Source: Mycobacterium sp. DL440 (GTDB lineage: Bacteria > Actinomycetota > Actinomycetes > Mycobacteriales > Mycobacteriaceae). Taken from it: a DNA stretch of 64,000 nt. How positions within the stretch are numbered: the first letter of the stretch is position 1; the number at the start of each line of letters is the position of its first letter. The position numbers were made by a program, and so were the translations under genes. The notes beneath the pieces are model-generated. The model made no database searches. It saw only the letters and a program-made list of their open reading frames with translations, and was not told the origin of the DNA. Positions 49,096 to 64,000 of this stretch are shown one piece after another. The stretch covers positions 1,205,991-1,269,990 of the forward strand of contig NZ_CP050191.1 in assembly GCF_011745145.1 (NCBI RefSeq), in the 5' to 3' direction.

Positions 49096-49167
49096 CGCAA
49101 GACATCGGGGAGTCGGCAAGCGTGGCCGGTTGGGAATTGCGGACCAGTGCCCACGGTTCGTGCACAT

Positions 49168-49521: not shown

Positions 49522-49545
49522 ACATTGCCGGCGATCGCCGGCTGA

Positions 49546-50217
49546 TCAGCTTGATCGCGGCCGCGCCCCGCGCCCATAAGTGATGTCGGCGCGCTCGGAA
49601 TCCCACCGATTGCGGAAGACGACGTCACTGAGCGGTCGGCGGCGGACAGGTCCGTGCTTGCCCCGCGGCCAGCCGACCACAATGTGACCGGCAAGGAACC
49701 ATTCGTCCGGAATACCAATCGATTTGCGTAGCACCTCGTCGCCGTCGTACGAGGCCCAACTGGTGATGCATGCGCCCAGTCCCTGGGCTCGGGCGGCCAG
49801 GTAAAAGTTCTGCATGGCGGGGTAGATCGATCCGCCTTGCAGGAACTCCGAGGAGAACTCGTTCTTGAACGCGACGAACAACACCGAGGTGTACTCCCCG
49901 CCGCGGTCGTGCAGCTCGTAGGTGGCCCGGTTGTTTCGTGCAGCTCGGCTCTGATCGTCCGCCGCGGGACGGCTCATCCCATAGATGGATTCGATTGACT
50001 GCAAGGCGATCTGGGCTGCCTCGGCGACGGCGGCGCGCTGTTCTGGCGCATCGAGAACGATGAACCGCCACAGCTGGGCGTTCGCCCCGTTGGGTGCCCA
50101 GGTCGCGGCTTGTAGGCAGCGTTCGAGTGTCTCGTCGTCGACCGGCTCGTTGGTGAACCGGCGGATGGATCGAGCGGTGGACAGCACTTCCCAGACATCG
50201 GTGGTTGGATCCGGCAT
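49546..50217 (-). CDS. Nitroreductase family protein
   Basis: A 223-residue FMN enzyme. STARSIRRFTNEPVDDETLE carries the classical SxRxF start, and WAPNGANAQLWRFIVL the FMN-binding loop. The family reduces nitroaromatics, quinones or enones using NAD(P)H; some members act on flavins. The start is ATG 50217; an in-frame ATG at 50307 lies beyond the operator. It shares the operator at 50288-50305 with the divergent SDR and so belongs to regulon 2. Confidence 0.87.
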   Translation of the reverse strand: MPDPTTDVWEVLSTARSIRRFTNEPVDDETLERCLQAATWAPNGANAQLWRFIVLDAPEQRAAVAEAAQIALQSIESIYGMSRPAADDQSRAARNNRATYELHDRGGEYTSVLFVAFKNEFSSEFLQGGSIYPAMQNFYLAARAQGLGACITSWASYDGDEVLRKSIGIPDEWFLAGHIVVGWPRGKHGPVRRRPLSDVVFRNRWDSERADITYGRGARPRSS

Positions 50218-50287
50218 CTCATTGGTGTACTCGACGCGAGCGTCGGTGTCGAGTGTGTGAGGGCCGTCTCCTTTTGGATGAAAATCT

Positions 50288-50305
50288 GCTGTACAGTCGT
50301 ATTGC
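50288..50305. promoter_or_regulatory. Regulon-2 operator O1
   Basis: GCTGTACAGTCGTATTGC, one of six 18-bp sites with the form GCTGTACNNNYGTAYWGC. It lies between the divergent nitroreductase (start 50217) and SDR (start 50343). Confidence 0.75.
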
Positions 50306-50342
50306 ATCTGACACGTTATGGCAATGGATAGGAGTCGATGCT

Positions 50343-51113
50343 GTGAGCGATAGGTTCTCGATGGAGGGGAAGGTTGCCGTCATCACCGGTGGCGGAACGG
50401 GAATCGGAAGGGCATCGGCGCTGGTCCTGGCCGAGCGTGGTGCTGACGTGGTGCTGGCCGGGCGCCGTCCGGAACCGCTGAAGTCCACTGCCACCGAAAT
50501 CGAGGCGCTCGGTCGCCGGGCGCTCGCGGTACCGACCGACGTGACGAATGCCGAGGAGTGCAATGCGCTCGTCGACACGACGCTCGCCGAGTTCGGTCGG
50601 CTCGATGTGCTGATGAACAACGCCGGCGGTGGCGAGACGAAGTCCCTAATGAAGTGGACTGACGACGAGTGGCATCAGGTTTTGGATCTGAACCTCTCCA
50701 GCGCGTGGTACCTGTCCCGGGCCGCGGCCAAGCCGATGATCGCCCAGGGCAAGGGATCGATTGTCAACATCTCCTCGGGGGCCAGCTTGCTTGCCATGCC
50801 GCAGGCGCCGGTCTACGCCGCCGCCAAGGCCGGTCTGAACAACCTGACCGGGTCCATGGCGGCCGCATGGACACGAAAAGGCGTGCGGGTCAACTGCATT
50901 GCCTGCGGCGCCATCCGAACGCCAGGGCTGGAAGCGGATGCGCAGCGCCAAGGGTTTGACATCGACATGATCGGCAAGACCAACGGATCCGGCCGGATCG
51001 CCGAACCAGACGAGATCGGTTACGGCGTCCTGTTCTTCGCCTCCGATGCCTCCAGCTACTGCTCCGGGCAGACGTTGTATATGCACGGCGGCCCGGGACC
51101 TGCGGGTGTCTGA
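50343..51113 (+). CDS. Short-chain dehydrogenase/reductase
   Basis: A 256-residue SDR with ITGGGTGIGRASALVLAERG, MNNAGGGETKSLMKW and IVNISSGASLLAMPQAPVYA with AAAKAGLNN as the YxxxK site. A cysteine-rich turn (NCIACGAIRTPG) precedes the C-terminal loop. The GTG at 50343 has AGGAG upstream. It leads a two-gene operon with the VOC protein after one base and has O1 in its promoter. Confidence 0.9.
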   Translation: MSDRFSMEGKVAVITGGGTGIGRASALVLAERGADVVLAGRRPEPLKSTATEIEALGRRALAVPTDVTNAEECNALVDTTLAEFGRLDVLMNNAGGGETKSLMKWTDDEWHQVLDLNLSSAWYLSRAAAKPMIAQGKGSIVNISSGASLLAMPQAPVYAAAKAGLNNLTGSMAAAWTRKGVRVNCIACGAIRTPGLEADAQRQGFDIDMIGKTNGSGRIAEPDEIGYGVLFFASDASSYCSGQTLYMHGGPGPAGV

Positions 51114-51114
51114 G

Positions 51115-51549
51115 ATGGGAATGAACGTCAGTCACGTCGGGCTTCGGGTCCGCGATATCGATACCGTCAAGAAGTTCTACGAGGCACTCGGATTCACCGA
51201 GGTGCAGCGGATGACGGTGCCGGACAAGATGGCCGCCGGCCTGCTCGGGTTGGCCGCGCCGATCGGCTTCGAGGCGGCCTACCTGCAAAACGATGGCTTT
51301 GTTCTGCAATTGCTGACCTTCTCAGGCCATCCGGCACCCGATGAGCCCCAGCGGGATATGGTCGGCGCCGGCCTCACACACCTGTCGCTGGCGGTGGACA
51401 ACGTGGCCGATGCGCAAGCGGCAGTGCGGTCGTCCGGAGGCACCGTGGTGGCCGATCCGGGTGGCGGATTCGCCTGCATGGTCCGCGATCCCGAGGGGCA
51501 GTTGATCGAGCTGATCCACTCGAAGGTGCGGCCGGTTCCGGCTGGTTGA
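51115..51549 (+). CDS. Glyoxalase/bleomycin-resistance/dioxygenase (VOC) superfamily protein
   Basis: A 144-residue protein of two beta-alpha-beta repeats: MNVSHVGLRVRDIDTVKKFY starts the first, LTHLSLAVDNVADAQAAVRS the second, and FACMVRDPEGQLIELIH holds the last metal ligand. Members are isomerases, epimerases, lyases or dioxygenases. It follows the SDR with one base between the stop and its ATG. A 21-base hairpin ends this operon. Confidence 0.87.
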   Translation: MGMNVSHVGLRVRDIDTVKKFYEALGFTEVQRMTVPDKMAAGLLGLAAPIGFEAAYLQNDGFVLQLLTFSGHPAPDEPQRDMVGAGLTHLSLAVDNVADAQAAVRSSGGTVVADPGGGFACMVRDPEGQLIELIHSKVRPVPAG

Positions 51550-51566
51550 GAATTCAGTGGCGCGTG

Positions 51567-51611
51567 GCGCGGCGGTGGTGTGTCGTCGAGGACGGCATAC
51601 CACCGCCGCGC
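51567..51611. terminator. Hairpin terminator between convergent genes
   Basis: A 21-base arm beginning GCGCGGCGGTGGT at 51567 pairs with 51591-51611 (two wobbles) around a three-base loop. It lies between the VOC gene (end 51549) and the LLM gene (end 51617) and fits a two-way terminator. Confidence 0.8.
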
Positions 51612-51616
51612 TGGTT

Positions 51617-52468
51617 CTACCGGAGTTCGTCGACCATGTCCGCGTAGGCGTCCAGAAACTCCCACGTGGTGGACGGGTCGCCGCCCTTCTTGCGGCCGCC
51701 ACCCAGCACAGCTCGGTTGAAGCCCAGGTCGCGGTAGCCTGCCAGTTTTTCCAAAGTCGGGTTGCCCCAGGCCATGATCGTGAGATCGAGGGTGGACGGA
51801 TCGCGACCGGCGTCCTCGGCTGTCCGGCGGAAATCGGCCATGGCGGCTCCCACATCTCGGAATGCGGCATCGCCGGGGAGCCAGCCGTCGGCCCAGGCCA
51901 GGCATTCCCGAATCGCCTTGGGTCCGGTGGCGGCAGCCAGTAGCGGCGGACGCGGACGCTGGCTGGGCTTGGGATACGACCACACCGGGGCGAAGTCGTA
52001 GAACCCGCCGTGATACTCGGACTCGTCGTCATCCCACAGCGTCGTGAGCGCAGCCACCATGTCGGCCAGTGCGCGATAGCGGTCGGCCCATTTCACCGGG
52101 CTCGATGTCTCCAGTTCGGCCCGCGCGCCGACGCCCACGCCCAGCGTCACACGCCCGTTGCTCAAATGGTCAAGCGTCGCGACTTCCTTTGCAAACGTGA
52201 ATAATTCGCGCTCCAGCGGAAGTGCCACCGCTGTTCCGAGCCGGAGCGTCTCGGTTGCCTGCGCAGCGGATAGCAGCGACAGAAACGGATCCAGAATCTG
52301 CTTCTGCGCAGCGAGCAGGGCAGGGTGGAACTGGTCCGCGGCAGCCAGTGGAATCTGCGGATGCTCACCGACCCACAGTGATTCGAAACCGCGGGACTCG
52401 AGCTCGGGCCCCAGGGTGGCCGGGCCGAGGTCTCGCGGCGTGTTCATCGAGACGAATCCCAAATCCAT
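51617..52468 (-). CDS. LLM-class (F420-dependent type) oxidoreductase
   Basis: A 283-residue luciferase-like enzyme: GPELESRGFESLWVGEHPQI, then NGRVTLGVGVGARAELE as the barrel strand and RPRPPLLAAATGPKAI. It probably uses F420 or FMN. The ATG at 52468 has TAAGGAGAG before it. It is divergent from a P450 and shares operator O2 at 52495-52512. An LLM and a P450 controlled from one operator suggests consecutive oxidations. Confidence 0.88.
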   Translation of the reverse strand: MDLGFVSMNTPRDLGPATLGPELESRGFESLWVGEHPQIPLAAADQFHPALLAAQKQILDPFLSLLSAAQATETLRLGTAVALPLERELFTFAKEVATLDHLSNGRVTLGVGVGARAELETSSPVKWADRYRALADMVAALTTLWDDDESEYHGGFYDFAPVWSYPKPSQRPRPPLLAAATGPKAIRECLAWADGWLPGDAAFRDVGAAMADFRRTAEDAGRDPSTLDLTIMAWGNPTLEKLAGYRDLGFNRAVLGGGRKKGGDPSTTWEFLDAYADMVDELR

Positions 52469-52494
52469 GACTCTCCTTAGCGGCAGTTTCAAAT

Positions 52495-52512
52495 GCTGTA
52501 CGATCGTACTGC
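52495..52512. promoter_or_regulatory. Regulon-2 operator O2
   Basis: GCTGTACGATCGTACTGC, the most symmetric copy; the inner GTACGATCGTAC is a perfect palindrome. It lies 27 bases before the LLM start and 46 before the P450 start. Confidence 0.8.
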
Positions 52513-52557
52513 ACTGGCCGCCTGAGTGGCGATGGACAGATCGAGGAGCGCATCCGC

Positions 52558-53748
52558 ATGGTGGAGACCACCGAGCTCTATTACGACCCCTACGACGTCG
52601 ATATCGATGCGGACCCGTATCCGGTCTACAAACGACTTCGCAACGAAACGCCGCTGTACTACAACGAAAAGCGAGACTTCTGGTCGCTGTCGCGGATGGC
52701 AGACGTAGAGCACGCGCTGCGCGATGTCGAGAACCTCAGCTCGGCCAAGGGTGACATCCTGGAGGTGGTCAAGGCCGAGCCGGTCATGCCGCTCGGTGTC
52801 TTCATCAACGAGGATCCTCCGCTGCACACGGTGCACCGGCTCCTGGTGTCACGCGCCTTCACGCCGCGGAAGATGAAGGCCATCGAGGAACAGGTTCGTG
52901 ACTTCTGCGCGAGATGCCTGGATCCACTGACCGGTGGCGATCGCTTCGATTTCATGGGCGATCTCGGAGCCGAGATGCCGATGCGTGTCATCGGGATGTT
53001 GGTCGGAATACCCGACGAATTGCAGCGCAGTGTGCGCAAGGTGGCCGGACGTAGGTTGCGAAACAACCCCGGTGAACCGCTGCCGGTGAGCAAGAACAAC
53101 TACTTCAACGGCAACATGTTTCGTGAGTATGTCGAGTGGCGTGAAAAGAACCCGTCCGACGATCTGGTGACCGAGCTGTTGAATGTCGAATTCACCGACG
53201 CCGACGGTGCTGAGCGGAAGTTGAGCTCCGAGGAACTCCTGGTCTTTCTCGGAGTGATCGCCAACGCCGGCACCGAGACGGTGGGCCGGCTGTTCGGGTG
53301 GCTCGGAAAGCTGCTGGGGGAGCACCCCGATCAGCGACGCGAACTGGTCGAGGATCCGTCATTGATCCCGGGCGCCATCGAGGAGGTTCTGCGTTACGAG
53401 CCGCCGGTGCACGGCATTGCCCGCTATGTCGCCAAAGACGTGACGTATCACGACACGACGGTTCCAGCTGGTTCGGCGCTCCTGCTCGTTGCAGGCGCAG
53501 CCAACCGCGACGAACGTAAATTCGACGATCCCGATCGTTTCGATATCCATCGCAACGGCAACCATGTGAGCTTTGGCCGGGGTACACATTTCTGCCTGGG
53601 TGCGTCGCTGGCGCGCGTCGAGGGGCGGGTGGCACTCGAGGAGATTCTCAAACGGTGGCCGGACTGGACGATCGACGAGCAGAACGCCGAGCGTGCACCC
53701 ACGGTGGCGGTACGAGGCTGGGACACCATGCCCGCCATCCTCGGTTGA
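52558..53748 (+). CDS. Cytochrome P450 (paralogue of the one at 58068)
   Basis: A 396-residue soluble P450. It starts MVETTELYYDPYDVDIDADP, carries ANAGTETVGR in the I-helix and FGRGTHFCLGASLARVEG with Cys346 in the heme loop, and ends GWDTMPAILG. The same N- and C-terminal signatures recur in the P450 at 58068-59255, so the two are paralogues. A GAGGAGCG site precedes the ATG. It lies under operator O2. It converges on an LLM gene with only four bases between. Confidence 0.92.
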   Translation: MVETTELYYDPYDVDIDADPYPVYKRLRNETPLYYNEKRDFWSLSRMADVEHALRDVENLSSAKGDILEVVKAEPVMPLGVFINEDPPLHTVHRLLVSRAFTPRKMKAIEEQVRDFCARCLDPLTGGDRFDFMGDLGAEMPMRVIGMLVGIPDELQRSVRKVAGRRLRNNPGEPLPVSKNNYFNGNMFREYVEWREKNPSDDLVTELLNVEFTDADGAERKLSSEELLVFLGVIANAGTETVGRLFGWLGKLLGEHPDQRRELVEDPSLIPGAIEEVLRYEPPVHGIARYVAKDVTYHDTTVPAGSALLLVAGAANRDERKFDDPDRFDIHRNGNHVSFGRGTHFCLGASLARVEGRVALEEILKRWPDWTIDEQNAERAPTVAVRGWDTMPAILG

Positions 53749-53752
53749 GGAT

Positions 53753-54682
53753 TCAGCCCTCTCGCGCCAGGGCGCTCAGCAGTGCCCTGGCACGCCGCAC
53801 CGAGCCGGACCGGGTGGACCGATCGGGGCCTACGGCGACCGGTTGGGCCCACACATCGGTGGCTCCGGCGTCGAGCAACGACTGCAACTGATGTTGCACG
53901 GCGTCCTCGGAGCCGATGATGGCGACATCGGCCGCGCTGGAACCGCCACCGGCTCGAATAATTTGCTCGTAGTTGCGCATTCCTGCATAGGAGACTGCGT
54001 TTGCCGCCACCGCGTCTCTGGCTTCGTCGAGGTCGTCGTGTACCGCTACCGGTAGCCCGGCCACGATCCGGGGCCGGGACCGCCCGAATTCGGATGCTGC
54101 GGCGGTGAGAGTCGGGGTGATCCGGGACTCCAGCGCCTGACGAGAGGCCATCCACAGCACAACCCCGTCTGCGAACTGTCCGGCGATGCGCAGCATCCGG
54201 GGTGACAGTGCGGACAGCAGGAGTGGGACCGGGTGTTCGGCGCGGGCGGCGCGGCCCGCGGTGTGCGCGCTCCAGTCAGTTCCGGCGAAATTCACGTCTT
54301 CGCCGCGCAGCAGCGGGCCGATGATCCTCAGATATTCGGCGGTGTTGCGGGCCGGGTGGTCATAGGACAGGCCCAGCACATCGCGCACGATCGGCTCATG
54401 TGACGGCCCGAGGCCGAGCGTGAGCCCTGGCCGTCCCATGGCGTTGGCGGCCGCGATCACCCGGTTGCCCTGCAGCATCGGATGGCACGGATACGTCTGC
54501 AGCACAGCGGTTCCCAGCTCGATGGACTGCGTCGCGCGCCCGGCGATGGCCATCGCCACCAGAGGGTCGCCCGCGACACCACTGGCGTACCACAGGGCGG
54601 AGAACCCGTCAGCCTCGGCTTCCTGGGCCTGGGTGATCATCCGGTCAACTGACGCAGCACCGCCGGACAGTCCGATACGCAT
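53753..54682 (-). CDS. LLM-class (F420-dependent type) oxidoreductase
   Basis: A 309-residue luciferase-like protein starting MRIGLSGGAASVDRMITQAQ, with IELGTAVLQTYPCHPM and the strand GRPGLTLGLGPSHEPIV. The last gene of a five-gene leftward operon (SDR, ferredoxin, P450, SDR, LLM) that starts at operators O3/O4. AAAGGGAG precedes the ATG. The barrel motifs favour the F420 subgroup; substrate unknown. Confidence 0.87.
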   Translation of the reverse strand: MRIGLSGGAASVDRMITQAQEAEADGFSALWYASGVAGDPLVAMAIAGRATQSIELGTAVLQTYPCHPMLQGNRVIAAANAMGRPGLTLGLGPSHEPIVRDVLGLSYDHPARNTAEYLRIIGPLLRGEDVNFAGTDWSAHTAGRAARAEHPVPLLLSALSPRMLRIAGQFADGVVLWMASRQALESRITPTLTAAASEFGRSRPRIVAGLPVAVHDDLDEARDAVAANAVSYAGMRNYEQIIRAGGGSSAADVAIIGSEDAVQHQLQSLLDAGATDVWAQPVAVGPDRSTRSGSVRRARALLSALAREG

Positions 54683-54711
54683 GGGTGCGGCTCCCTTTCT
54701 GGTGGCCCCGT

Positions 54712-55575
54712 TTATCGCATGATGTGGGCGTACTGCTCGTGTGGGTGGACGTCGAACATCGTCCGATACGACGGTGGCCGGCGACCTCCCTCGTCCACAA
54801 TGCCGTACTTCCCGGCGAGTTCGGCACCGATCAGGGTACGGCCGCTGGACTCCATCAGATTCGGATCGTTGAACAACGCCCAGATCACATGGCCGGTGAG
54901 TTCAGGGGTCTCAGCGCTGTCGAGTATGTGGCCGAACTTGTCGGGCTTGGCGGCGATGATCGCCCGAACCCGTTCGGTCAGAAGCGAACCCATCCAGATC
55001 GATACCGCGGCGATATCGAACTCGCGGAAATCCACGGCCATGTCAGCGGCCATCTTGTCTACGCCGGCCTTCGGCACGCCGTAAGCCGGCCCGAAGGCGT
55101 AGTGCACCGAGCCCGAGGAAGAGGTGAATGCCACCAGACCCTTCCGCTGTGGCAGCATCAGGGGTGCGCAAAGTACCGTGGCGACATAGCTGCTGCGCAA
55201 TCCGACGTCGAAGGTGTCCAACACACTCAGCGGCTCCTCCCAGAACTTGGTGCGGCCCATCATCTCGTCGCGGATTATCGCGGCATTGTTCACCAGGATG
55301 TCCACCCGGCCCTGCTCTTCGGCGATCCGGTCGAACAGTGCCTTGACCTGATCGTCGTCACTGTGGTCGACCCGTACGGCGATGCCATGCCCCCCGGCTG
55401 CGGTCACCAGCTCGGCGGTGTGGTGGATCGTGCCGGCCAGGGCCGAATCCCCCTGGTTCTCACTGCGTCCGGTGACATACACCGTGCAGCCATGACTTCC
55501 CAGCGCATGCGCGATACCCGCCCCCGCGCCGCGGCTGGCCCCGGTGACGACGGCGACTGGTCGGTCCTCGCCCAT
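54712..55575 (-). CDS. Short-chain dehydrogenase/reductase
   Basis: A 287-residue SDR: VVTGASRGAGAGIAHALGSH, LVNNAAIIRDEMMG and FTSSSGSVHYAFGPAYGVPK with the Tyr-Lys pair. The C-terminal part is longer than usual and ends YRTMFDVHPHEQYAHIMR. It overlaps the preceding P450 stop by one base (TGATG), so translation is coupled. It probably oxidises the alcohol formed by that P450. Confidence 0.88.
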   Translation of the reverse strand: MGEDRPVAVVTGASRGAGAGIAHALGSHGCTVYVTGRSENQGDSALAGTIHHTAELVTAAGGHGIAVRVDHSDDDQVKALFDRIAEEQGRVDILVNNAAIIRDEMMGRTKFWEEPLSVLDTFDVGLRSSYVATVLCAPLMLPQRKGLVAFTSSSGSVHYAFGPAYGVPKAGVDKMAADMAVDFREFDIAAVSIWMGSLLTERVRAIIAAKPDKFGHILDSAETPELTGHVIWALFNDPNLMESSGRTLIGAELAGKYGIVDEGGRRPPSYRTMFDVHPHEQYAHIMR

Positions 55576-56924
55576 CAGGCGACGATCTCAGCCGCGGTTT
55601 TGAGCTCGGTGATCGGTCGGGCCAGCCCCTGCTCGTCGCAGATACGCTGCAGCTTGACCAACGTCTCCTCCAGGCCGGGGCCGAGGCTCCGGCCTGGAGT
55701 GAACTGTGCGGGCAGGTGCCGCATGCCTTGGATCACCCCGATGCTGTCGTAGTGCACCGTGCCTTCGGCCACGCATCGGTAGTCAGGCATCCGGTCGAGA
55801 ACCGCGGTCAGCATCGACTTGAACACCGTCCTGGCCACATTCGAGCCGATGCACCGGTGTACTCCGAGCCCGAAGCTGAAGTGGCGGTTGTTTTTCCGGT
55901 CCATCACCAGGGCATCCGGATCCTCGAACAGTGACGGATCCCGATTGGCCATCGCCCAGGACAGCCACAGCCGCTCACCTTCACGCAGCGATGTGCCGTC
56001 CAGATCGATGTCCTCGGAGACGGTTCGAGCATCCCCGGGAGCGGGCGTGAAGAAACGTAAGAACTCCTCAGTGGCTCGGTCGAGCAGTACAGCACGTTCC
56101 GCACTCAACTGGGTGCGCTTATCGGTGTGCTGTGACAACCACTCCAGGGCATGCGCGGTAAGTGCGGTCGTGGTGTCGAAGCCTCCGCCGATCAGCAGAT
56201 TCAGCATGCCGATCAACTCGATATCGGGCGGTGCCTCGCCGTTGATGCGCAGTTTGGCCAACGCGTCGATGATCCCGGGCCGTGGATTGTCCCGTACCTC
56301 AGAAAGATTGGTGAACAGGTCGATCCCCATCGTCAGGTACAGGTCGCGCACGCGGGCCGCGTCCGGGGAGTCCGGTGGCGTGTAGACCGAGGCGTGCGCC
56401 GGCTCGTTGTAGATCGTCCACTTGTCCAGCCGCACACCAAGCATGGCCAGGGTGAGCACCGCCGGCACCACATTGGCCAGGTCGTCGACGAAATCGATGT
56501 GCCCGGTCTCGATCCGGTCATCAATGCAGGCCCGCACGATCTCGTCGATGAACGGGGCCCAGCGCTTGACCGCGGCGGGGGACAGGTACGGGTTGAGTGC
56601 GGTGCGGTAGAAGCGGTGTTCCGGATCGTCCATCTCCAGCATGCCGCCACGAAACCCCTCTGCCTCCAACATCGTCGGAATGGAGATGCCCTTGTAGCCG
56701 CGGCGTTCGTTGTGTACATCGTGGTCGTTGGACACATGCGGGCAGCGGGCCAGCTCGAACACCTGGGGACCGCCTGCGGCCACCCAATGCCCGTCGTAGG
56801 TATCGGTCCAGGCGATGGGGCACTTCTGCTGCATCTCGTGGGTGATATCGAGGAAGCTCTCGCGATAGTCGGCACCGTGGCGGTCGAAGTGGTACCTGGC
56901 CGCTGGGTCGGTGGGGGCGTTCAT
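55575..56924 (-). CDS. Cytochrome P450
   Basis: A 449-residue P450. The I-helix is LIGGGFDTTT, the K-helix EEFLRF supplies ExxR, and the heme loop FGLGVHRCIGSNVARTV has Cys358. It belongs to a different branch from the two paralogues of this cluster. Its ATG overlaps the ferredoxin stop (ATGA), the only P450 of the window with its own ferredoxin, so that protein is its likely electron donor. It sits in the O3/O4 leftward operon. Confidence 0.92.
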   Translation of the reverse strand: MNAPTDPAARYHFDRHGADYRESFLDITHEMQQKCPIAWTDTYDGHWVAAGGPQVFELARCPHVSNDHDVHNERRGYKGISIPTMLEAEGFRGGMLEMDDPEHRFYRTALNPYLSPAAVKRWAPFIDEIVRACIDDRIETGHIDFVDDLANVVPAVLTLAMLGVRLDKWTIYNEPAHASVYTPPDSPDAARVRDLYLTMGIDLFTNLSEVRDNPRPGIIDALAKLRINGEAPPDIELIGMLNLLIGGGFDTTTALTAHALEWLSQHTDKRTQLSAERAVLLDRATEEFLRFFTPAPGDARTVSEDIDLDGTSLREGERLWLSWAMANRDPSLFEDPDALVMDRKNNRHFSFGLGVHRCIGSNVARTVFKSMLTAVLDRMPDYRCVAEGTVHYDSIGVIQGMRHLPAQFTPGRSLGPGLEETLVKLQRICDEQGLARPITELKTAAEIVA

Positions 56925-57130
56925 TGTTCGGTCTCCGGGGTCAGGAGGTGGATGGCCTGTTCCGGGCAGGAACGAACCGCCTCGTGCACGTGCTCGTGAT
57001 ACTCGGTTGCGACGGCGTCGACGGCCACCTGAGCGTGGCCGTCGGTGTCATCGAGTTCGAAGATTTCCGGCGCGATCATCGCGCACAGGGTGTGGCCCTG
57101 GCACCGTGACGTGTCGACTTCTGCTTTCAC
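56921..57130 (-). CDS. 3Fe-4S-type ferredoxin
   Basis: A 69-residue ferredoxin: VDTSRCQGHTLCAMIAPEIF and SCPEQAI. Cysteines at 10, 16 and 55 with His13 in place of the second cysteine give the CxxHxxC...CP pattern of mycobacterial P450 ferredoxins. It overlaps the P450 by four bases and would pass electrons to it from a ferredoxin reductase encoded elsewhere. It may also serve the other two P450s of the cluster, which lack partners. Confidence 0.92.
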   Translation of the reverse strand: MKAEVDTSRCQGHTLCAMIAPEIFELDDTDGHAQVAVDAVATEYHEHVHEAVRSCPEQAIHLLTPETEQ

Positions 57131-57187
57131 CGTTGCTCCTGGATGGAATCTGGATTGGCTGAATGTGATTGGTCCGTGTCTGCCGAA

Positions 57188-57931
57188 TCAGGTGACCGCT
57201 CCACCATTGACGCCGATGACCTGGCCTGTGATGTATCCGGCGTCTTCCGCTGCCAGGAACGAACACGCCGCCGCCACGTCCTCGGGGCGGCCCAGCGCTC
57301 CGGCCGGGATCGCCTGGTTCAGGTACTTGTCCAGCGGCAGTTTCCCGGCGGCCTGCTGCTCACGCAGCATCGGCGTTTCGATCGCAAACGGAGGCACGGT
57401 GTTGGCGGTGATGCCCTTCGACGCGTAGTCGAGTGCCACAGTTTTGGTGAGCGCGATGACACCACCCTTGGCTGCGGAATAGTGCGCCTGGCCCTGTGCA
57501 CCCTTCTGGCCGGCCGCCGAGGAGATCGTGATGATCCGCCCCCACTGCGCGGGCACCATGTCTTCCAGCGCGGTCCGAATGCACAGGAACGTCCCCGTCA
57601 AGTTGACCGCCAGATAGCGATTCCACTGATCCAGGGTGATCTTGTCGAGGCGGGTGAAACCCGAGATGGCCGCGCTGGTCACCAGAATGCCGACCGGATC
57701 CAGTTGGGTGCGGACCGAGTCGAAGACCTGCGCGACGGCATCCTCGTCCGACACATCGGCGCCGAGGGCGATGGCTCGACCGCCCGCCGCCTCGATCTCG
57801 GCCGCGACCTTGCCTGCAGCTTCGGCGTTGAGATCAAGAACAGCAACATGTTTGCCGTCGGCAGCAAGTCGGATGGCGATTGACCTGCCAAGTCCCGATC
57901 CACCCCCGGTTACTACCGCTACCCGGCTCAT
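57188..57931 (-). CDS. Short-chain dehydrogenase/reductase
   Basis: A 247-residue classical SDR: VVTGGGSGLGRSIAIRLAAD, ITISSAAGQKGAQGQAHYSA with the SAAKGG lysine, and PPFAIETPML. The pattern is close to FabG/3-oxoacyl reductase types. It is the first gene of the leftward operon from O3/O4. The ATG at 57931 lies 35 bases from O3; the in-frame ATG at 58027 would lie beyond both operators and is unlikely. Confidence 0.9.
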   Translation of the reverse strand: MSRVAVVTGGGSGLGRSIAIRLAADGKHVAVLDLNAEAAGKVAAEIEAAGGRAIALGADVSDEDAVAQVFDSVRTQLDPVGILVTSAAISGFTRLDKITLDQWNRYLAVNLTGTFLCIRTALEDMVPAQWGRIITISSAAGQKGAQGQAHYSAAKGGVIALTKTVALDYASKGITANTVPPFAIETPMLREQQAAGKLPLDKYLNQAIPAGALGRPEDVAAACSFLAAEDAGYITGQVIGVNGGAVT

Positions 57932-57965
57932 TACCCAGTTCCTCCTGTGCGCCTCGCCACATTCC

Positions 57966-57983
57966 ACTGTACAGATGTATAGC
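57966..57983. promoter_or_regulatory. Regulon-2 operator O3
   Basis: ACTGTACAGATGTATAGC, 35 bases before the SDR start at 57931. Its centre is 42 bases from that of O4, four helical turns, which may allow cooperative binding. Confidence 0.75.
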
Positions 57984-58007
57984 GGATGCCGATGTTCGAC
58001 ACAAGCC

Positions 58008-58025
58008 GCTGTACGTATGTATAGC
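58008..58025. promoter_or_regulatory. Regulon-2 operator O4
   Basis: GCTGTACGTATGTATAGC, 43 bases before the P450 start at 58068. With O3 it forms a pair in the same orientation. Confidence 0.75.
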
Positions 58026-58067
58026 ATTGCCTCTACACTCGTGCTGACTTCGAGGAGGAGAACGGCT

Positions 58068-59255
58068 GTGAGCGACCTCTATTACGACCCGTGGGATGTC
58101 GACATCGATATCGACCCCTATCCGACGTACCGCCGGCTGCGGGACGAGGCCCCGGTGTACTACAACGAACGACACGACTTCTGGGGCATCAGCCGGTACG
58201 CAGATGTAGACGCGGCCCTGAAAGACACCGTCCGGCTCAGCTCGGCCAAGGGTGACATCCTCGAGGTCGTCATGACCGACCCGGTGATGCCTCCGGGAAT
58301 CTTCATCAACGAGGACCCGCCGCTGCACACGATTCATCGCGCGATCGTGTCCAGAGCCTTCACGCCGAAGAAGATGCGCGCCATCGAAGACAAGATTCGA
58401 GCTTTCTGCGTGGCGTGCCTGGACCCGCTCGTCGGCGGAGGCAACTTCGACTTCGTCGAGGACCTCGGCGCCGAGCTTCCGATGCGCACGATCGGGATGC
58501 TGGCCGGTATCCCCGACTCCGAGCAGCCCGCGGTGCGTGAGCATGCCAACCAGGTGCTCCGCAATGAACCGGGTAAGCCGATGCAGATCAAGAAGGATCG
58601 CTACTTCACCGGAGAGATGTTCGGCGAGTACGTCAAATGGCGGGAGAAGAACCCGTCCGACGACCTGATCACCGAGCTGCTCAATGTCGAGTTCGAGGAC
58701 GAGACCGGAACCACCCGCAAGTTGGCCAAGCAGGAACTCATCGTGTTCCTTGCGGTGGTGGCCGGCGCGGGTGTGGAGACAACCGGCCGGCTGTTCGGGT
58801 GGATGGGCAAAGTGCTGGCTGAACATCCCGATCAGCGAAAGGAACTAGCCGAGAACCATGGCCTGATTCCAACGGCGATCGAGGAGTTGCTCCGCTTCGA
58901 ACCACCGGGGCCGCACGTGGCGCGCTACGTCGCCACCGACGACGTGGTGTTCCAGGGTCAGGTGGTGCCGGCGGGCAGCGCCCTGCTGATGATGCTGGCA
59001 TCGGCGAACCGGGACGAGCGCCACTTCGATGAACCCGACCGGTTTGACATCCACCGAAAGCCGGGTGGTCACTTGACATTCGGTCGCGGTGCGCATTTCT
59101 GCGTCGGATCGCCGCTGGCCCGGTTGGAGGGGCGCGTCGCACTCGAAGAAGTACTCAAGCGCTGGCCAACCTGGGAGATCGACATGTCAGGCGCACGCCG
59201 ATCACGCACCTCCACCGTGCGTGGCTGGGACACCATGCCGGCCATCGTCGGCTGA
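58068..59255 (+). CDS. Cytochrome P450 (paralogue of the one at 52558)
   Basis: A 395-residue soluble P450. It opens with VSDLYYDPWDVDIDIDPYPT, has VAGAGVETTGR in the I-helix and FGRGAHFCVGSPLARLEG (Cys345) in the heme loop, and ends GWDTMPAIVG. Many stretches equal those of the P450 at 52558. The GTG at 58068 has a strong GAGGAGGAG site. It is followed after 15 bases by a mycofactocin-type SDR, with which it forms a rightward operon from O4. Confidence 0.92.
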   Translation: MSDLYYDPWDVDIDIDPYPTYRRLRDEAPVYYNERHDFWGISRYADVDAALKDTVRLSSAKGDILEVVMTDPVMPPGIFINEDPPLHTIHRAIVSRAFTPKKMRAIEDKIRAFCVACLDPLVGGGNFDFVEDLGAELPMRTIGMLAGIPDSEQPAVREHANQVLRNEPGKPMQIKKDRYFTGEMFGEYVKWREKNPSDDLITELLNVEFEDETGTTRKLAKQELIVFLAVVAGAGVETTGRLFGWMGKVLAEHPDQRKELAENHGLIPTAIEELLRFEPPGPHVARYVATDDVVFQGQVVPAGSALLMMLASANRDERHFDEPDRFDIHRKPGGHLTFGRGAHFCVGSPLARLEGRVALEEVLKRWPTWEIDMSGARRSRTSTVRGWDTMPAIVG

Positions 59256-59270
59256 GGAGAAGGGAACATC

Positions 59271-60092
59271 GTGACACCACCAGAACGCCACGTCGTCGTC
59301 ATCACCGGGGCCGCGCGCGGTCAGGGCCGCAGCCACGCGGTGGCGCTGGCCGAGGCCGGCGCGGACATCATCGCCGTAGACCGGTGCGCCGACATCGACT
59401 CCATCCCCTACCCGTTGGCCACCAAGGAGGATCTGGCCGAAACCGCCCGCCTGGTGCGGGAGGCGGGAGGCCGAATCGAGACCGCGGTCGCCGACGTGCG
59501 GAACCTGGCCGACCTGCGTGCGGCGGTGGACGCCGGGATCGCCGCCTTCGGTGAAGTCGACACCGTGGTGGCCAATGCCGGTGTGGTCGGCATCGGGCTG
59601 GGGGAGACGCTCGACGAACAGGTCTACTCCGACATTGTCGACACCAATCTGCGCGGAGTGTGGAACACCATTGCGGCTACCGCGCCGTCGATGATCCGCC
59701 GGGGCACCGGTGGTTCGATGATCCTGATCTCCTCGATGCAGGGCCTGGTTGGTCGCGGCGGCGACGGCAGCGCCGCCACTTTCGCCTACGCCGCCTCCAA
59801 GCACGGTGTGGTGGGCCTGATGCGCTCGGCTGCGTTTGCCTACGCTCAGCACAGCATTCGGGTGAATTCGGTGCATCCGACCGGGGTGGCCACGCCGATG
59901 ATCTTCAATGAGCACATGGCCGAGCTCTTCGCGGCCAACCCCGAGGGCACCGGGATGGCGGGCAATCTGCTGCCGGTGCCCTTCGTCGAACCGCTCGATG
60001 TCACCAATGCGGTGGTGTTCCTGGCCGGTGAGAAGGCCCGCTACATCACCGGGGTGGCCCTGCCCGTCGACGCCGGTTTCGCCGTCATGTGA
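59271..60092 (+). CDS. Mycofactocin-coupled type SDR oxidoreductase
   Basis: A 273-residue SDR of the mycofactocin-associated subgroup as I recall it: VVITGAARGQGRSHAVALAE at the N-terminus, the inserted segment YPLATKEDLAETARLVREAG that buries the nicotinamide, and the active site ILISSMQGLV with FAYAASKHG. Such enzymes hold their NAD(H) tightly and pass electrons to the peptide-derived cofactor mycofactocin. The GTG has GAGGAGAAGGG. It probably oxidises the P450 product alcohol. A hairpin follows. Confidence 0.85.
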   Translation: MTPPERHVVVITGAARGQGRSHAVALAEAGADIIAVDRCADIDSIPYPLATKEDLAETARLVREAGGRIETAVADVRNLADLRAAVDAGIAAFGEVDTVVANAGVVGIGLGETLDEQVYSDIVDTNLRGVWNTIAATAPSMIRRGTGGSMILISSMQGLVGRGGDGSAATFAYAASKHGVVGLMRSAAFAYAQHSIRVNSVHPTGVATPMIFNEHMAELFAANPEGTGMAGNLLPVPFVEPLDVTNAVVFLAGEKARYITGVALPVDAGFAVM

Positions 60093-60116
60093 CGCACCGA
60101 CTTCCCCGCGATGCCA

Positions 60117-60157
60117 ATCGGCGCCGGAGCCACCATCGCGGTGGCACCGGCGCCGAT
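60117..60157. terminator. Hairpin terminator between convergent genes
   Basis: ATCGGCGCCGGAGCCACC at 60117-60134 pairs with 60140-60157 with one mismatch around a five-base loop. It lies between the SDR end (60092) and the GMC oxidoreductase end (60165). Confidence 0.78.
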
Positions 60158-60164
60158 GTAGTTG

Positions 60165-61769
60165 TCAGGAGCGGTCTTCGAGGATGAAATCGGCGGCCCG
60201 CCAGGCCATCGCCATGATCGGCCCGTTGAGGTTGCCTGCCACCATGGTCGGCATCACCGAGCAGTCGACCACACGCAGGCCGTCCGCGCCGCGCACCCGC
60301 AGCCGGCTGTCCACCACCGCGTCGTCGTCGGGACCCATCGCGCAGGTGCCCACCGCGTGATATCCGCTGAATCCACCCTCAAGTGCGGCATCGACAAGCT
60401 CCTCGTCGCTGATCGCCGCCGGGCCAGGGTAGGTCTCGGCGCTGATCCGGTCCACGATGGGCTCTTGGCCGAAGATCTCCCGCATCTTGCGCAGCAGATT
60501 GGCCGTTGTCTGCCGATCCTCGTCGGTGCCGAGGTAATTGGGATCGATCAGCAATGGCGCACTCGGGTCGGATCCGGTGATCTCGCAACGACCTTCCGCG
60601 GTCGGACGCAATGCCATTCCGAGGCAGGATGCGCCAGGGGCTCGCTCGATCTTGACCGGCTCCCCGGTGTTGTAGGCCGGGATGGTCCACGGGCCGAGCA
60701 TCAGCTGGGCGTCGACCCGCTCGGCCTCGGGCCGTGACTTGACGAATGCCACGATATCGAACGCCGGGGCGGCCAGCGGGCCCTTCCGGGTCGCCAGATA
60801 CCGTGCCCCGGTTTTCGCCTGGGCCAGGTTGCTCGACAGCTGTCGGTTATAGCCGAGGTCGGCGTTGAGCCGGAACCGCATGGCGGCGCAACGATGTTCG
60901 CGAAGACCGCGACCCACCCTGTCCCGGTCGAGATAGACCTCGACACCGGCGGAATCCAGCACCTCCCTGGGGCCGATCCCGGACAGCTGCAGCAGTTTCG
61001 GGCTGTTGAGGCTGCCCATGGAGACGATCACCTCGCGGTTGGCCCGGATTTCGGTGCGACCGTGACGGTTTCGCGTCACCACGCCGACCGCCCGGTTGTT
61101 GTCGAACAGGATCCGATCGACCGAGGTATTGGTCACCACGGTGAGATTCGGCCGCCCCATGGCCGGCTTGAGGAATGCCCGCGAGGCGCTGACCCGGCGG
61201 CCGTTCTTGATGGTCGACGTGGTGTAGCCGATCCGCTCCTCGTCGGATTCGTTGATGTCCTGTACCTCGGTCAGGCCGGCCTTGACCCCGGCGGCCAGCA
61301 TCTCCCGGCACAGCGGATCAGGATCGCGCGGAACCGAGATGTGCAGCGGCCCACCCGCTCCGCGCGTCGGTGATGACCCGAACTGATTGTCCTCGAAGGA
61401 CTTGAAGATCGGCAGGATGTCGTCCCAGCCCCAGCCCGGGTTGCCCAACCGTTCCAACTCGTCGTAGTCGGCGCGGTTTCCGCGGTTGTAGACCATTCCG
61501 TTGACCGAACTCGACCCGCCGAGCAGCTTGCCGCGCATCCAGGTCTCGACATGCGAACTCGGCCCGAAGGGGATGGTCTGATACTGCCAGGTGTACTTCT
61601 CGTTCTCGAACACCAGACCTGCGCCCTTCGGGATGCTGAACATCGGGCTGCGATCGCCGCCGCCCGCCTCGATCAGCAATACCGATACCGACGGGTCGGC
61701 AGACAGCCGGTTGGCGAGTACGCAGCCGGCGGATCCGGCGCCGGCAATGATGTAGTCGTAGCTGGTCAT
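60165..61769 (-). CDS. GMC family FAD-dependent oxidoreductase
   Basis: A 534-residue flavoprotein alcohol dehydrogenase/oxidase. The FAD motif YIIAGAGSAGCVLANRL is N-terminal, GKLLGGSSSVNGMVYNRG the GMC signature, and GYHAVGTCAMGPDDDAVVD with GNLNGP the catalytic His and Asn. Length and motifs fit the choline-dehydrogenase-like group. It would oxidise an alcohol to an aldehyde or ketone. It is the last gene of the leftward SnoaL-SDR-GMC operon and its ATG overlaps the SDR stop. Confidence 0.9.
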   Translation of the reverse strand: MTSYDYIIAGAGSAGCVLANRLSADPSVSVLLIEAGGGDRSPMFSIPKGAGLVFENEKYTWQYQTIPFGPSSHVETWMRGKLLGGSSSVNGMVYNRGNRADYDELERLGNPGWGWDDILPIFKSFEDNQFGSSPTRGAGGPLHISVPRDPDPLCREMLAAGVKAGLTEVQDINESDEERIGYTTSTIKNGRRVSASRAFLKPAMGRPNLTVVTNTSVDRILFDNNRAVGVVTRNRHGRTEIRANREVIVSMGSLNSPKLLQLSGIGPREVLDSAGVEVYLDRDRVGRGLREHRCAAMRFRLNADLGYNRQLSSNLAQAKTGARYLATRKGPLAAPAFDIVAFVKSRPEAERVDAQLMLGPWTIPAYNTGEPVKIERAPGASCLGMALRPTAEGRCEITGSDPSAPLLIDPNYLGTDEDRQTTANLLRKMREIFGQEPIVDRISAETYPGPAAISDEELVDAALEGGFSGYHAVGTCAMGPDDDAVVDSRLRVRGADGLRVVDCSVMPTMVAGNLNGPIMAMAWRAADFILEDRS

Positions 61770-62557
61770 AGCTCCCTCGATGCAACCGGAACGTTCAGTC
61801 GTAGGTCGGCGCCGGTGACTGCGGTGAAAGTCATTGGCCAGGCTGGCTTTCCGTGTTGGGCCACCCAGCACGCCCCGGTTTCCCTGATAGGTGCGGTGGC
61901 CGCCGTGAGCACCGCGTCGGCGATCGCGTCGGGCTCCATCACCGGTACCCCGATGCGCTCGACCAGCTTCCGTCTATCGCCCAGCACCCCGGTTTCGGTG
62001 ATCCCGGGGCAGATGGTGTGGACCGCGATACCCTCGGGCGCCAGGTTGGGTGCTATCGACCGCATGAACCCCACCACGCCGTGCTTGCCGAGGCTGTAGA
62101 CGGGGTCAGGATGCCAGGGCATCAGGCCGGCCAGTGAGGCCGTGGCCAAAATCGCCCGGTCCGGCACGCTCCCGCAGGATCGCATCGTCTTGACGGCCAC
62201 AGCGGCGCCATAAACCACTCCGTCCAGGTTCACGCCGACCGACTTGCGGTACTGGTCAAGGTCCAGTGCTCCGATGTCGCCCGACCAGTGAATAGTGATG
62301 CCTGCGTTGAGGAATGCCAGATCCACGCTGCCGAGTTCGTCAACACAGCGGGAGAAGGCAGCCTCGACCTGGCCGGGATCGGACACGTCGCAGGCGAACC
62401 CCAGACCATTGAACGACTGGGCCACGGTCTCGGCCGCTTTGCCGTCGATATCGACCACACAGACCCGCATGCCTTCGGCCGCCAGCCTCAGCGCCGATGC
62501 CTTGCCGATGCCCGAGGCCCCGCCGGTGACGAGCGCTACATTTCCGACGAGCTTCAT
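61766..62557 (-). CDS. Short-chain dehydrogenase/reductase
   Basis: A 263-residue SDR: LVTGGASGIGKASALRLAAE, FLNAGITIHWSG (NAG), and TASLAGLMPWHPDPVYSLGK as the active site. The C-terminal tail ends NVPVASREL. It lies between the SnoaL gene (7-base gap) and the GMC oxidoreductase (4-base overlap). Co-transcription with both is evident. Confidence 0.9.
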   Translation of the reverse strand: MKLVGNVALVTGGASGIGKASALRLAAEGMRVCVVDIDGKAAETVAQSFNGLGFACDVSDPGQVEAAFSRCVDELGSVDLAFLNAGITIHWSGDIGALDLDQYRKSVGVNLDGVVYGAAVAVKTMRSCGSVPDRAILATASLAGLMPWHPDPVYSLGKHGVVGFMRSIAPNLAPEGIAVHTICPGITETGVLGDRRKLVERIGVPVMEPDAIADAVLTAATAPIRETGACWVAQHGKPAWPMTFTAVTGADLRLNVPVASREL

Positions 62558-62564
62558 CTGATGG

Positions 62565-63119
62565 TTACCAGCGATTGACCGGTGCGCCGTCCATGGATAG
62601 CGGCCGCTGATACGACGCGTCGGTCTTGTCCCAAGTACCCTTGATGAACCCGGCGACAGCGCCGGACTTCAGCAACGAGGTATCGCCGTTCATCATCCAT
62701 TCGATGGTGCACCGGCGCAGCGCGATCTTCCAGACCCCATCACGGCGCTCCAGGCGGTCGATGTAGCGGCCGCCCATCAACGAGACGATCTTGCCGCCCT
62801 TGGCGCGCATGGCGCCGATGACATAACTCTCGGCGTGCGCGACATCGCCGTCGATCTCACAGGTGTGGGTGGTGATGTTGTGCAGGTGGTCCTCGAAGAC
62901 TGCCGTATGTGCTCCATTGGCCCATTCGCCGTACTCCGGACCGGTTTTGACGGTGGGGCCGTGCTCGTCGATGCCGTCCTCGAAGTACACGCTGCCCATG
63001 AGTTCGGCGTCGTGGCGGTCGTGGCCGCGGGATTGATTCATGATCAGGTCAATGATCGCGAACCGGTCCTCGACGTACTGCAGACGCTGACGGAGTTGAT
63101 CAAGGTCATCGGCGGGCAT
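62565..63119 (-). CDS. SnoaL-like / NTF2-fold protein
   Basis: A 184-residue SnoaL-like protein: QLRQRLQYVEDRFAIIDLIM at the N-terminus, RGHDRHDAELMGSVYFEDGI and HLHNITTHTCEIDGDVAHAE with GGRYIDRLERRDGVWKIALR. The pattern is typical of the group next to steroid and terpenoid pathways. The ATG at 63119 follows GAGGAAGGACGG. It starts the leftward operon from operators O5/O6. Confidence 0.86.
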   Translation of the reverse strand: MPADDLDQLRQRLQYVEDRFAIIDLIMNQSRGHDRHDAELMGSVYFEDGIDEHGPTVKTGPEYGEWANGAHTAVFEDHLHNITTHTCEIDGDVAHAESYVIGAMRAKGGKIVSLMGGRYIDRLERRDGVWKIALRRCTIEWMMNGDTSLLKSGAVAGFIKGTWDKTDASYQRPLSMDGAPVNRW

Positions 63120-63154
63120 GGGCCGTCCTTCCTCTGGGGGTGAATGCTGGATAA

Positions 63155-63172
63155 GTTGTACAACTGTATAGC
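63155..63172. promoter_or_regulatory. Regulon-2 operator O5
   Basis: GTTGTACAACTGTATAGC, 36 bases before the SnoaL start at 63119. Confidence 0.7.
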
Positions 63173-63226
63173 ACGGTGGTGGGGCGAGACGGCAAGTGTC
63201 AATTCGACTGCACCCCTCGGGCCGAT

Positions 63227-63244
63227 GCAATACAGTCGTACAGC
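63227..63244. promoter_or_regulatory. Regulon-2 operator O6
   Basis: On the minus strand this reads GCTGTACGACTGTATTGC, almost the O1 sequence. It lies 38 bases before the remnant monooxygenase gene at 63282. Confidence 0.72.
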
Positions 63245-63281
63245 ATCGGGGTTCTCGGTAGTCGGAGGAGATGGAGCTTTG

Positions 63282-63616
63282 ATGGATGCGCTCGGGCACA
63301 ACTTCCACGGAAGCTGGCGTCACCCCGACGCTCGCAACCGTGAGTTCAAGGGTTTCGACCTATGGATGGATCTGGCGAACAAGGCCGAACAGGCCAAGGT
63401 CGACGCGCTTTTCTGCACCGACGTGATGGGCGTGCAGGGGCAATGCCGCAGAGCTACGAGGAGTTCTTCGAGCATCTGGTGCCGGTGCTTCAGGACAAAG
63501 GCCTGATGCAGCGGGAATACCAGCCAGGAACCCTGCGGGAGAAGCTGTTTGGAACATCGTCGGGTGACATTTCCGAGCGGCACCCGGCGCACGGATACCG
63601 CGGAAAGTTCTGTTAG
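63282..63616 (+). pseudogene. Internally deleted LLM monooxygenase (NtaA/DszA-like)
   Basis: A strong GGAGGAG site precedes the ATG at 63282. The first about 50 codons (GHNFHGSWRHPDARNREFKG, then WMDLANKAEQAKVDALFCTD) match the N-terminus of NtaA/DszA-type monooxygenases. The frame then runs into noise and stops at 63506. A different frame from about 63437 gives PQSYEEFFEHLVPVLQDKGL and then LREKLFGTSSGD, the family's C-terminus, to TAG 63616. About 330 codons of the catalytic barrel are missing. The promoter, operator O6 and ribosome site look intact. Confidence 0.75.
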
Positions 63617-64000
63617 TCGGCGGTCTTCTTGGTACGACGGCGAGCCGCGGACGAACGCTTTGTTGGAGTTGTCCGCGGCTCGACGGCGTCCAGTTGATCC
63701 TCGAACGCCTTGGTCAGCTCGCCATGGGCGGTCTGGACACCGATACCCTTCTCCAGGTTCAGGAATTTCGGCAGGCTGGAGATCAGTAACTGCAACGCCG
63801 GCAGCGACAGATCGCCGACTGGCCGCGCGTCCTCACCGAATCTGGCTGTCAAAGCGTCCAATTGGACTTTCCGGGCGGACTCGGTGACAGAGGCTATCTC
63901 AGTCTGGATCGACTTGCGATGGTTGCCGAGGGCCATGAACTCGGTCATCAGCACACCGGTGGCCTCATCCCAGTTGTACTCCCACAGCGCACGCAGCGGA
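63613..64000 (-). CDS. TetR/AcrR family regulator (partial, 5' end beyond window)
   Basis: The C-terminal about 128 residues of a TetR-type protein: PLRALWEYNWDEATG, then LMTEFMALGNHRKSIQTEI and LPALQLLISSLPKFLNLEKG, ending in a basic tail (RTTPTKRSSAARRRTKKTAD). The helix-turn-helix lies outside the window. Its stop overlaps the remnant monooxygenase stop by two bases. As the only regulator near the right cluster it may bind the regulon-2 operators; this is inference. Confidence 0.8.
   Translation of the reverse strand, partial: PLRALWEYNWDEATGVLMTEFMALGNHRKSIQTEIASVTESARKVQLDALTARFGEDARPVGDLSLPALQLLISSLPKFLNLEKGIGVQTAHGELTKAFEDQLDAVEPRTTPTKRSSAARRRTKKTAD

Follow-up and report, generated by a model that had tools for sequence, protein, structure and literature searches.

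Genes and sites at the locus

The 64,000-nt stretch analysed here, which we call the window, comes from Mycobacterium sp. DL440 (NCBI RefSeq assembly GCF_011745145.1, contig NZ_CP050191.1, positions 1,205,991 to 1,269,990), whose genome (G000) is one contig of 6.38 Mb, with the window at C1:1205991-1269990. Its right-hand part holds a cluster of 15 intact genes, encoding three P450s, five SDRs, two F420-type LLM oxidoreductases, a ferredoxin, a nitroreductase, a VOC protein, a SnoaL-like protein and a GMC oxidoreductase, together with six copies of a short dyad (O1 to O6) and a TetR-family regulator gene, TetR-A. A first-pass annotation of the window had named these gene classes correctly; a third LLM-type gene, of the NtaA/DmoA type, is also present in decayed form. 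The features are listed below, with site scores from a weight matrix derived from other genomes, by which the six sites score 20.9-31.0.

49546..50217, minus: nitroreductase-family protein (Pfam PF00881 on a longer frame; start ATG at 50217)
50288..50305, no strand: putative operator O1, exact match, matrix score 30.3
50343..51113, plus: SDR_d, a classical SDR (Pfam on a frame one codon longer)
51046..51549, plus: VOC/glyoxalase-fold protein (Pfam PF00903)
51617..52468, minus: LLM_f, an F420-dependent LLM oxidoreductase (TIGR03619, 193 bits; cut-off 166.9)
52495..52512, no strand: putative operator O2, exact match, matrix score 31.0
52558..53748, plus: P450a1 (PF00067; nearest solved relatives include CYP130)
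53753..54682, minus: LLM_e, an F420-dependent LLM oxidoreductase (TIGR03564, 312.8 bits; cut-off 234.25)
54712..55575, minus: SDR_b (Pfam)
55575..56924, minus: P450c (PF00067; best solved relative P450cin, 161.5 bits)
56924..57130, minus: small ferredoxin (cysteine pattern by eye, on the translated frame)
57188..57931, minus: c8SDR, an SDR and presumed head of a five-gene leftward operon (Pfam on a longer frame; start ATG at 57931)
57966..57983, no strand: putative operator O3, one mismatch, matrix score 20.9
58008..58025, no strand: putative operator O4, exact match, matrix score 30.2
58068..59255, plus: P450a2 (Pfam on a longer frame)
59271..60092, plus: SDR_h, a mycofactocin-coupled SDR (TIGR03971, 349.5 bits; cut-off 300)
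60165..61769, minus: GMC oxidoreductase (PF00732/PF05199 on a longer frame)
61766..62557, minus: SDR_g (Pfam)
62565..63119, minus: SnoaL-like protein (PF13577 on a longer frame)
63155..63172, no strand: putative operator O5, one mismatch, matrix score 22.7
63227..63244, no strand: putative operator O6, exact match on the minus strand, matrix score 30.3
63282..63616, plus: NtaA/DmoA-type FMN monooxygenase remnant (two tblastn pieces in different frames)
63613..64000 in the window, the gene running to 64260, minus: TetR-A, the proposed repressor (complete, 215 aa)

From the gene layout we infer seven intact transcription units, in addition to the decayed NtaA-type gene (+): nitroreductase (-), SDR_d-VOC (+), LLM_f (-), P450a1 (+), c8SDR-ferredoxin-P450c-SDR_b-LLM_e (-), P450a2-SDR_h (+) and SnoaL-SDR_g-GMC (-). 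Every unit is preceded by a site 26-45 bp from its start codon, with the exception of the nitroreductase gene, where the distance is 70 bp. O1 lies 70 bp from the start of nitroreductase (-) and 37 bp from that of SDR_d (+), between the two, and O2, likewise between its genes, 26 bp from the start of LLM_f (-) and 45 bp from that of P450a1 (+); O3 is 34 bp upstream of the SDR-ferredoxin-P450c-SDR-LLM operon (-), O4 42 bp upstream of P450a2 (+), O5 35 bp upstream of the SnoaL-SDR_g-GMC operon (-) and O6 37 bp upstream of the NtaA-type remnant (+). These positions bear out the arrangement first described, of four divergent promoters, two of them with paired sites. A single site stands in each of the two closer promoter pairs, whose starts are 89 and 125 bp apart, and two in each of the wider pairs (136 and 162 bp).

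Uniqueness and consensus of the sites

All six sites are where the first-pass annotation had placed them. Four of them match the pattern exactly (50288, 52495 and 58008 on the plus strand, 63227 on the minus strand), and those at 57966 and 63155 have one mismatch each, so the statement that all six fit holds with that reservation. Across the 6.38-Mb genome, all four exact and both one-mismatch sites lie within the cluster, and every match elsewhere has at least two mismatches; whole-genome totals, the six sites included, were 21+26, against 16+17 for a reversed control pattern. Within the window, allowing up to three mismatches gave 15 strand-wise matches, 12 of which are the six sites read both ways; 100 shuffled windows gave a mean of 4.73 (standard deviation 2.49), and none of them reached 15. 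The matrix scan found no other site scoring at least 8 in 49001-63980, and none scoring at least 13 in 1-49000. By an earlier 18-bp matrix the six sites scored 21.1-29.0, the next best in 80 kb scored 2.7, and 20 Markov decoys of equal length peaked at 13.2. Grouping of exact inverted repeats and palindromes in the window found neither this dyad nor the motif ascribed to the left cluster of the window; GC-rich coding repeats dominated.

The consensus was drawn from 62 exact sites in the TetR loci of other genomes (see below) and their reverse complements, which gave tGCTRTACRNNYGTAYAGCa. Its core is an 18-bp dyad, which weaker T/A ends (T in 69% at position -1) bring to 20 bp, and an R/Y preference flanks the two-base centre. 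The selecting pattern fixed most of the inner letters and left the outer T/A and the central R..Y free to vary; these last features are therefore findings rather than assumptions. Positions -6 to -2 outside the dyad are weakly constrained. The 18-bp consensus first reported reads this dyad from one side.

Six genomes chosen for having sites (G317, G200, G021, G346, G123 and G085) have them at the same promoters as the window. Both the O1 and the O2 promoter have a site in all six; the promoter of O3 has two sites in G317, G200, G021 and G346, three in G123 and one in G085. O5 has an off-consensus GTTGTAC half. The SnoaL promoters of four of the six genomes, G317, G200, G021 and G085, have this same variant, TGTTGTAC (aligned with G317, G200 and G021). 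The off-consensus half therefore looks like a kept variant rather than decay.

Co-occurrence of the putative operator with TetR-A

Scanning related genomes, a check that the first-pass annotation had suggested, showed that the operator and a TetR-A ortholog co-occur in 396 genomes of the genus, drawn evenly and including that of DL440. A TetR profile (A1) separated 76 genomes, at 318 bits or more, from three places at 213, 210 and 201 bits and a remainder at 169 bits or less. At least one exact GCWRTACNNNNGTAYWGC was found in 59 of the 76 genomes with a TetR-A ortholog and in 30 of the 320 without (Fisher p 2.5e-32). For at least two exact sites the numbers were 43 of 76 and 1 of 320 (p 1.8e-35), and for at least three, 18 of 76 and 0 of 320. 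The 320 TetR-A-negative genomes hold 31 sites, and the reversed control has 37 on one strand in the 396 genomes, both about 0.1 per genome.

The regulator had been described as not obvious, with a partial TetR gene at 63613 as the nearest candidate. Ortholog and operator co-occurrence now allow TetR-A to be named, and the comparison of genomes and loci makes it the likely reader; its gene is complete, cut only by the end of the window. The N-terminal DNA-binding domain of TetR-A belongs to PF00440 (precomputed for the identical protein, P0001). Its predicted structure (pLDDT 86.1) agrees with the all-helical TetR fold: the ten best PDB matches of the model all fall among TetR-type regulators, with a probability of 1.00, a TM by query of 0.54-0.66 and 14-20% identity; among the best 50 matches of the structure search we saw only generic TetR proteins.

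Loci selected by the TetR protein

We also fetched 61 loci (1.166 Mb) from named genomes, picked by the TetR profile and not by the motif. Exact sites number 62 and are spread over 40 of these loci; the reversed pattern has no match. For 57 of the 62 exact sites a cluster-family gene starts within 250 bp (89 distances, median 41 bp). By the matrix, 227 sites score at least 15; they lie in 60 of the 61 loci, with at least two sites in 53, whereas 152 kb of other mycobacterial DNA has none. Of these 227 sites, 207 lie within 150 bp before a listed cluster gene, and no site reaches further than 60 bp into one. The motif is thus not equally common outside catabolic promoters: sites are cluster-specific both in the DL440 genome and in the TetR loci.

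Placement follows the likely operon heads. Matrix sites precede SnoaL in 50 of 54 copies, c8SDR in 35 of 39, P450a2 in 31 of 36, the nitroreductase in 16 of 17, P450a1 in 15 of 16, NtaA in 20 of 26, LLM_f in 15 of 19 and SDR_d in 29 of 41. The corresponding numbers for inner genes are 1 of 24 for P450c, 0 of 22 for SDR_g, 0 of 17 for VOC, 0 of 10 for the ferredoxin and 1 of 9 for SDR_h, with SDR_b (11 of 40) and LLM_e (4 of 15) intermediate. Among 62 copies of the TetR gene, 37 have a site of their own no more than 150 bp away. A palindromic operator is therefore found at or near both the regulator gene and its proposed targets, as in a local TetR regulon. Exact sites extend outside the Mycobacteriaceae, to loci of Nocardia, Actinomadura and Williamsia (for the last, two records carry a flag for unverified contamination); in Rhodococcus, Frankia and an Acidimicrobiales bin the loci show sites by the matrix alone. 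Together, these sequence comparisons support a cluster-specific operator, its placement at promoters and TetR-A as its likely reader.

A paralog, TetR-B, with its own dyad

The next TetR clade, TetR-B, is 38-41% identical to TetR-A in five fetched loci and 35% identical in the DL440 genome. TetR-B is divergent to a P450 gene in four of the five loci (the L155-L158 group) and in DL440 (L164, G000:C1:3268106), with a 20-bp dyad, TGCTRAGCANNTGCTYAGCA, between the two; the fifth locus, L154, has no P450 and no such dyad. The adjacent P450 is only about 30% identical to P450a1 of the window, and that of L155 is CYP150A6-like (PDB match, 735 bits). The TetR-B dyad shares its length, ends and symmetry with the TetR-A dyad but differs in its inner bases, RAGC rather than RTAC, and the recognition-helix stretch reads LKPQLVHYYF in TetR-B and VTPSLVQYYF in TetR-A. 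A TetR-B with a dyad in the same frame supports TetR-A as the reader of the TetR-A dyad, and the differences between the two proteins are a possible natural specificity switch.

The pattern TGCTNAGCANNTGCTNAGCA is present in 264 of the 396 genomes, and its reversed control in 2; TetR-B lies 76-130 bp from the dyad in 17 of the 17 genomes for which both places are listed. Among the 120 TetR-B relatives listed, only generic TetR titles are found. DL440 has one exact TetR-B-type dyad at TetR-B and its P450, and a second (L165) with none of the searched families within its 3 kb. Two further dyads, with two mismatches each, lie 19 kb apart (L166, C1:3329630; L167, C1:3348945) and precede a P450 54% identical to those of the window and an SDR 48% identical to SDR_h; perhaps these mark another catabolic cluster under TetR-B. 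In the window, TGCTNAGCANNTGCTNAGCA has a single match with three mismatches (58544, inside P450a2) and none closer, which does not assign the cluster to TetR-B. A different parallel regulon, in which TetR-B has its own dyad beside a P450, probably lies elsewhere in the same genome.

Cluster genes, synteny and a plasmid-borne copy

Several cluster genes are widely kept: at 45% identity or more, the 61 TetR loci hold 41 copies of SDR_d and 36 of P450a2, and the SnoaL-like protein has matches in 54 of them. The ferredoxin frame has no match in NCBIfam; the annotation of plasmid pJCM13574 (see below) has a ferredoxin in this gene order. The GMC protein scores 290.4 bits, under the MftG cut-off of 387.45. 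Reading the substrate from protein families was tried and given up; the only NCBIfam families above curated cut-offs were F420-dependent LLM and mycofactocin-coupled SDR among the window genes tried and NtaA in a relative's gene.

The pieces of the NtaA/DmoA remnant correspond to residues 45-99 and 434-489 of a 490-aa frame in G317, the middle being lost; the family, TIGR03860, was assigned on a relative's gene (L082). The remnant remains behind an exact operator, O6, and G317 has the full-length frame at the same place. The order in G317 (SnoaL, two operators, NtaA, TetR) matches the window, and there NtaA is complete.

Between SnoaL and NtaA, three of the compared genomes (G346, G200 and G021) have a module that includes Rieske, alkyl-sulfatase-type and E1-type genes. 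Mce genes are within the module in G346 (L079, 2339-18339) and G200 (L092), and G021 has no Mce match at the cut-off used. The module's Rieske gene has no close relative in the DL440 genome (best 43%). The Rieske/Mce module hints, by sequence, at a sterol- or terpenoid-like lipid substrate.

Plasmid pJCM13574 of Mycolicibacterium madagascariense (NZ_AP022611.1) carries a TetR-A ortholog, 73.8% identical over 91%, and shares with the window the NTF2/SnoaL-type and NtaA genes, two P450s, the ferredoxin, SDRs, nitroreductases, the mycofactocin-coupled SDR and GMC. Its regulon has nine matrix sites scoring at least 15. Unlike the window, it lies on a plasmid typed as mobilizable and has aldehyde dehydrogenase and sulfotransferase genes interspersed. 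The plasmid is 228 kb, and the regulon occupies 92881-133465 (L172).

To the right of the window (64355-69085, L024), genes of 422, 305, 513 and 324 aa also flank the cluster in G193, and three of the four follow it in G317. We take them to be a reductase, a TetR protein, a monooxygenase and nrdF; these genes may be the older neighbourhood that received the cluster.

Discussion

We propose, with a probability of about 0.88, that a single local repressor of the TetR family, TetR-A, has the six sites as its operators and would control the whole cluster until a pathway compound binds it. From the sites, their symmetry and consensus, their promoter positions and the linkage to TetR-A, all by sequence comparison, we infer the following sequence of events. 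A TetR-A dimer, or a pair of dimers, would bind the dyad 26-45 bp before the nearest start codon and block the promoter, with a single site serving both promoters of the closer divergent pairs and one site per promoter in the wider pairs. All seven units (15 intact genes) and the decayed NtaA-type gene would be repressed together. Release of the DNA would follow when TetR-A binds either a cyclic substrate, small and probably hydrophobic, or one of the early products.

Several observations weigh against this proposal. Twenty-one of the 61 TetR loci and 17 of the 76 ortholog-bearing genomes have no exact site, and a Blastococcus locus (L148) has none even by the matrix. The matrix was trained on the exact sites of the same 61 loci, so its counts are not independent of the exact-site test; profile A1 was built from the TetR of the window and ten from motif-picked loci; and the genomes share ancestry, such that the p values overstate their independence. 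One genome lacking a TetR-A ortholog, G157, has two exact operators, far apart (C1:4265522 and 5704467), and is the only such genome among the 320; around the first of them (L072) we found none of the shared cluster families. In DL440, a matrix scan of the window and 16 kb of right flank found no operator before TetR-A, and therefore there is no autoregulation here by this motif. Lastly, other regulator genes occur near the cluster: a LysR-type gene in the window and LuxR-type genes in the loci of two relatives.

It seems improbable that TetR-A binds these operators as an activator or mixed regulator rather than as a repressor. The sites precede start codons, at a median distance of 39 bp, and with very short leaders a position shortly before the -35 element could allow activation. 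Against this, the 89 distances range from 17 to 134 bp and 64 of them fall between 17 and 51 bp, where the sites would presumably overlap the core promoters of leaderless or short-leader transcripts, and TetR-family members are described as "often repressors" (PMC4482099).

Slightly less probable still is that TetR-A is a mere passenger and that the reader is another protein, such as the TetR-like product of ~65508-66425, the LysR-type protein at 48382 or a distant regulator. Both of the named genes are near the cluster in DL440, and co-occurrence alone does not distinguish a reader from a passenger. Nonetheless, among 38 compared stretches, most of them motif-picked and several from one genome, TetR-A is common to 20, the LysR gene to 4 and the 65508 gene to 3; TetR-A loci of other genera (Nocardia, Williamsia and Actinomadura) have exact sites; and the paralog TetR-B adjoins a dyad of the same length and ends. 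That the sites are instead a conserved feature other than an operator, whether chance repeats or shared promoter ancestry, is very improbable: the cluster genes are partly paralogous (two P450a-type genes and several SDRs), such that promoter duplication could copy a motif, but the dyad is constant while its flanks differ, positions -6 to -2 being weakly constrained, and placement before likely operon heads holds across gene families.

The proposed repression by TetR-A has parallels among known systems. In the cholesterol regulons of KstR and KstR2, local TetR-family regulators act through palindromic operators (KstR, TNNAACNNGTTNNA; KstR2, ANCAAGNNCTTGNT) at the promoters of ring-compound pathways. 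Like these, the window cluster has P450s and SDRs, and two relatives have Mce genes inside the cluster; unlike these, none of its 15 genes is an acyl-CoA beta-oxidation gene, and the two motifs, compared by eye, are unlike the TetR-A dyad and absent from its consensus. A link to Rv3057c-Rv3058c-Rv3059 was considered and dropped; the P450 of L155 is CYP150A6-like, and P450c of the window is closest in the PDB to P450cin. Published work reports that KstR and KstR2 bind palindromic motifs (PMC4482099), that Rv3058c of M. tuberculosis is tabulated among mycobacterial TetR genes in divergent orientation, its motif being weak (E 2.0E-12) (PMC4482099, PMC6469627), and that overproduction of Rv0238 and Rv3058c, named together, induced cyp136a1 and other P450 genes (PMC4482099, PMC6469627). 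By these descriptions Rv3058c is a possible parallel to TetR-A. A TetR repressor with a local palindromic regulon is a well-known kind, and this regulator/operator pair appears to be new; we found no description of this regulon or its relatives in the open-access literature searched.

We give an even chance to a broader picture, in which TetR-A and TetR-B are sister repressors of parallel P450 pathways in the same cells, with same-frame dyads (TGCTRTACRNNYGTAYAGCA and TGCTRAGCANNTGCTYAGCA), and their regulons are kept apart by a few helix residues (T47, S49 and Q52 versus K, Q and H). The TetR-A regulon would then be a mobile, self-contained module, once found on a plasmid typed as mobilizable, that is distributed among Mycobacterium, Nocardia, Williamsia and others, has Mce-type lipid import in some relatives, and would serve the uptake and breakdown of sterol- or terpenoid-like compounds.

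Many mycobacterial TetR regulators and P450s have no known job, and here a regulator, an operator and a gene set can be proposed together. The TetR-A ortholog in 76 of the 396 sampled genomes would offer a direct handle on an uncharacterized oxidative pathway, and the TetR-A/TetR-B pair would provide a natural, pre-aligned case of a change in DNA specificity among TetR repressors.

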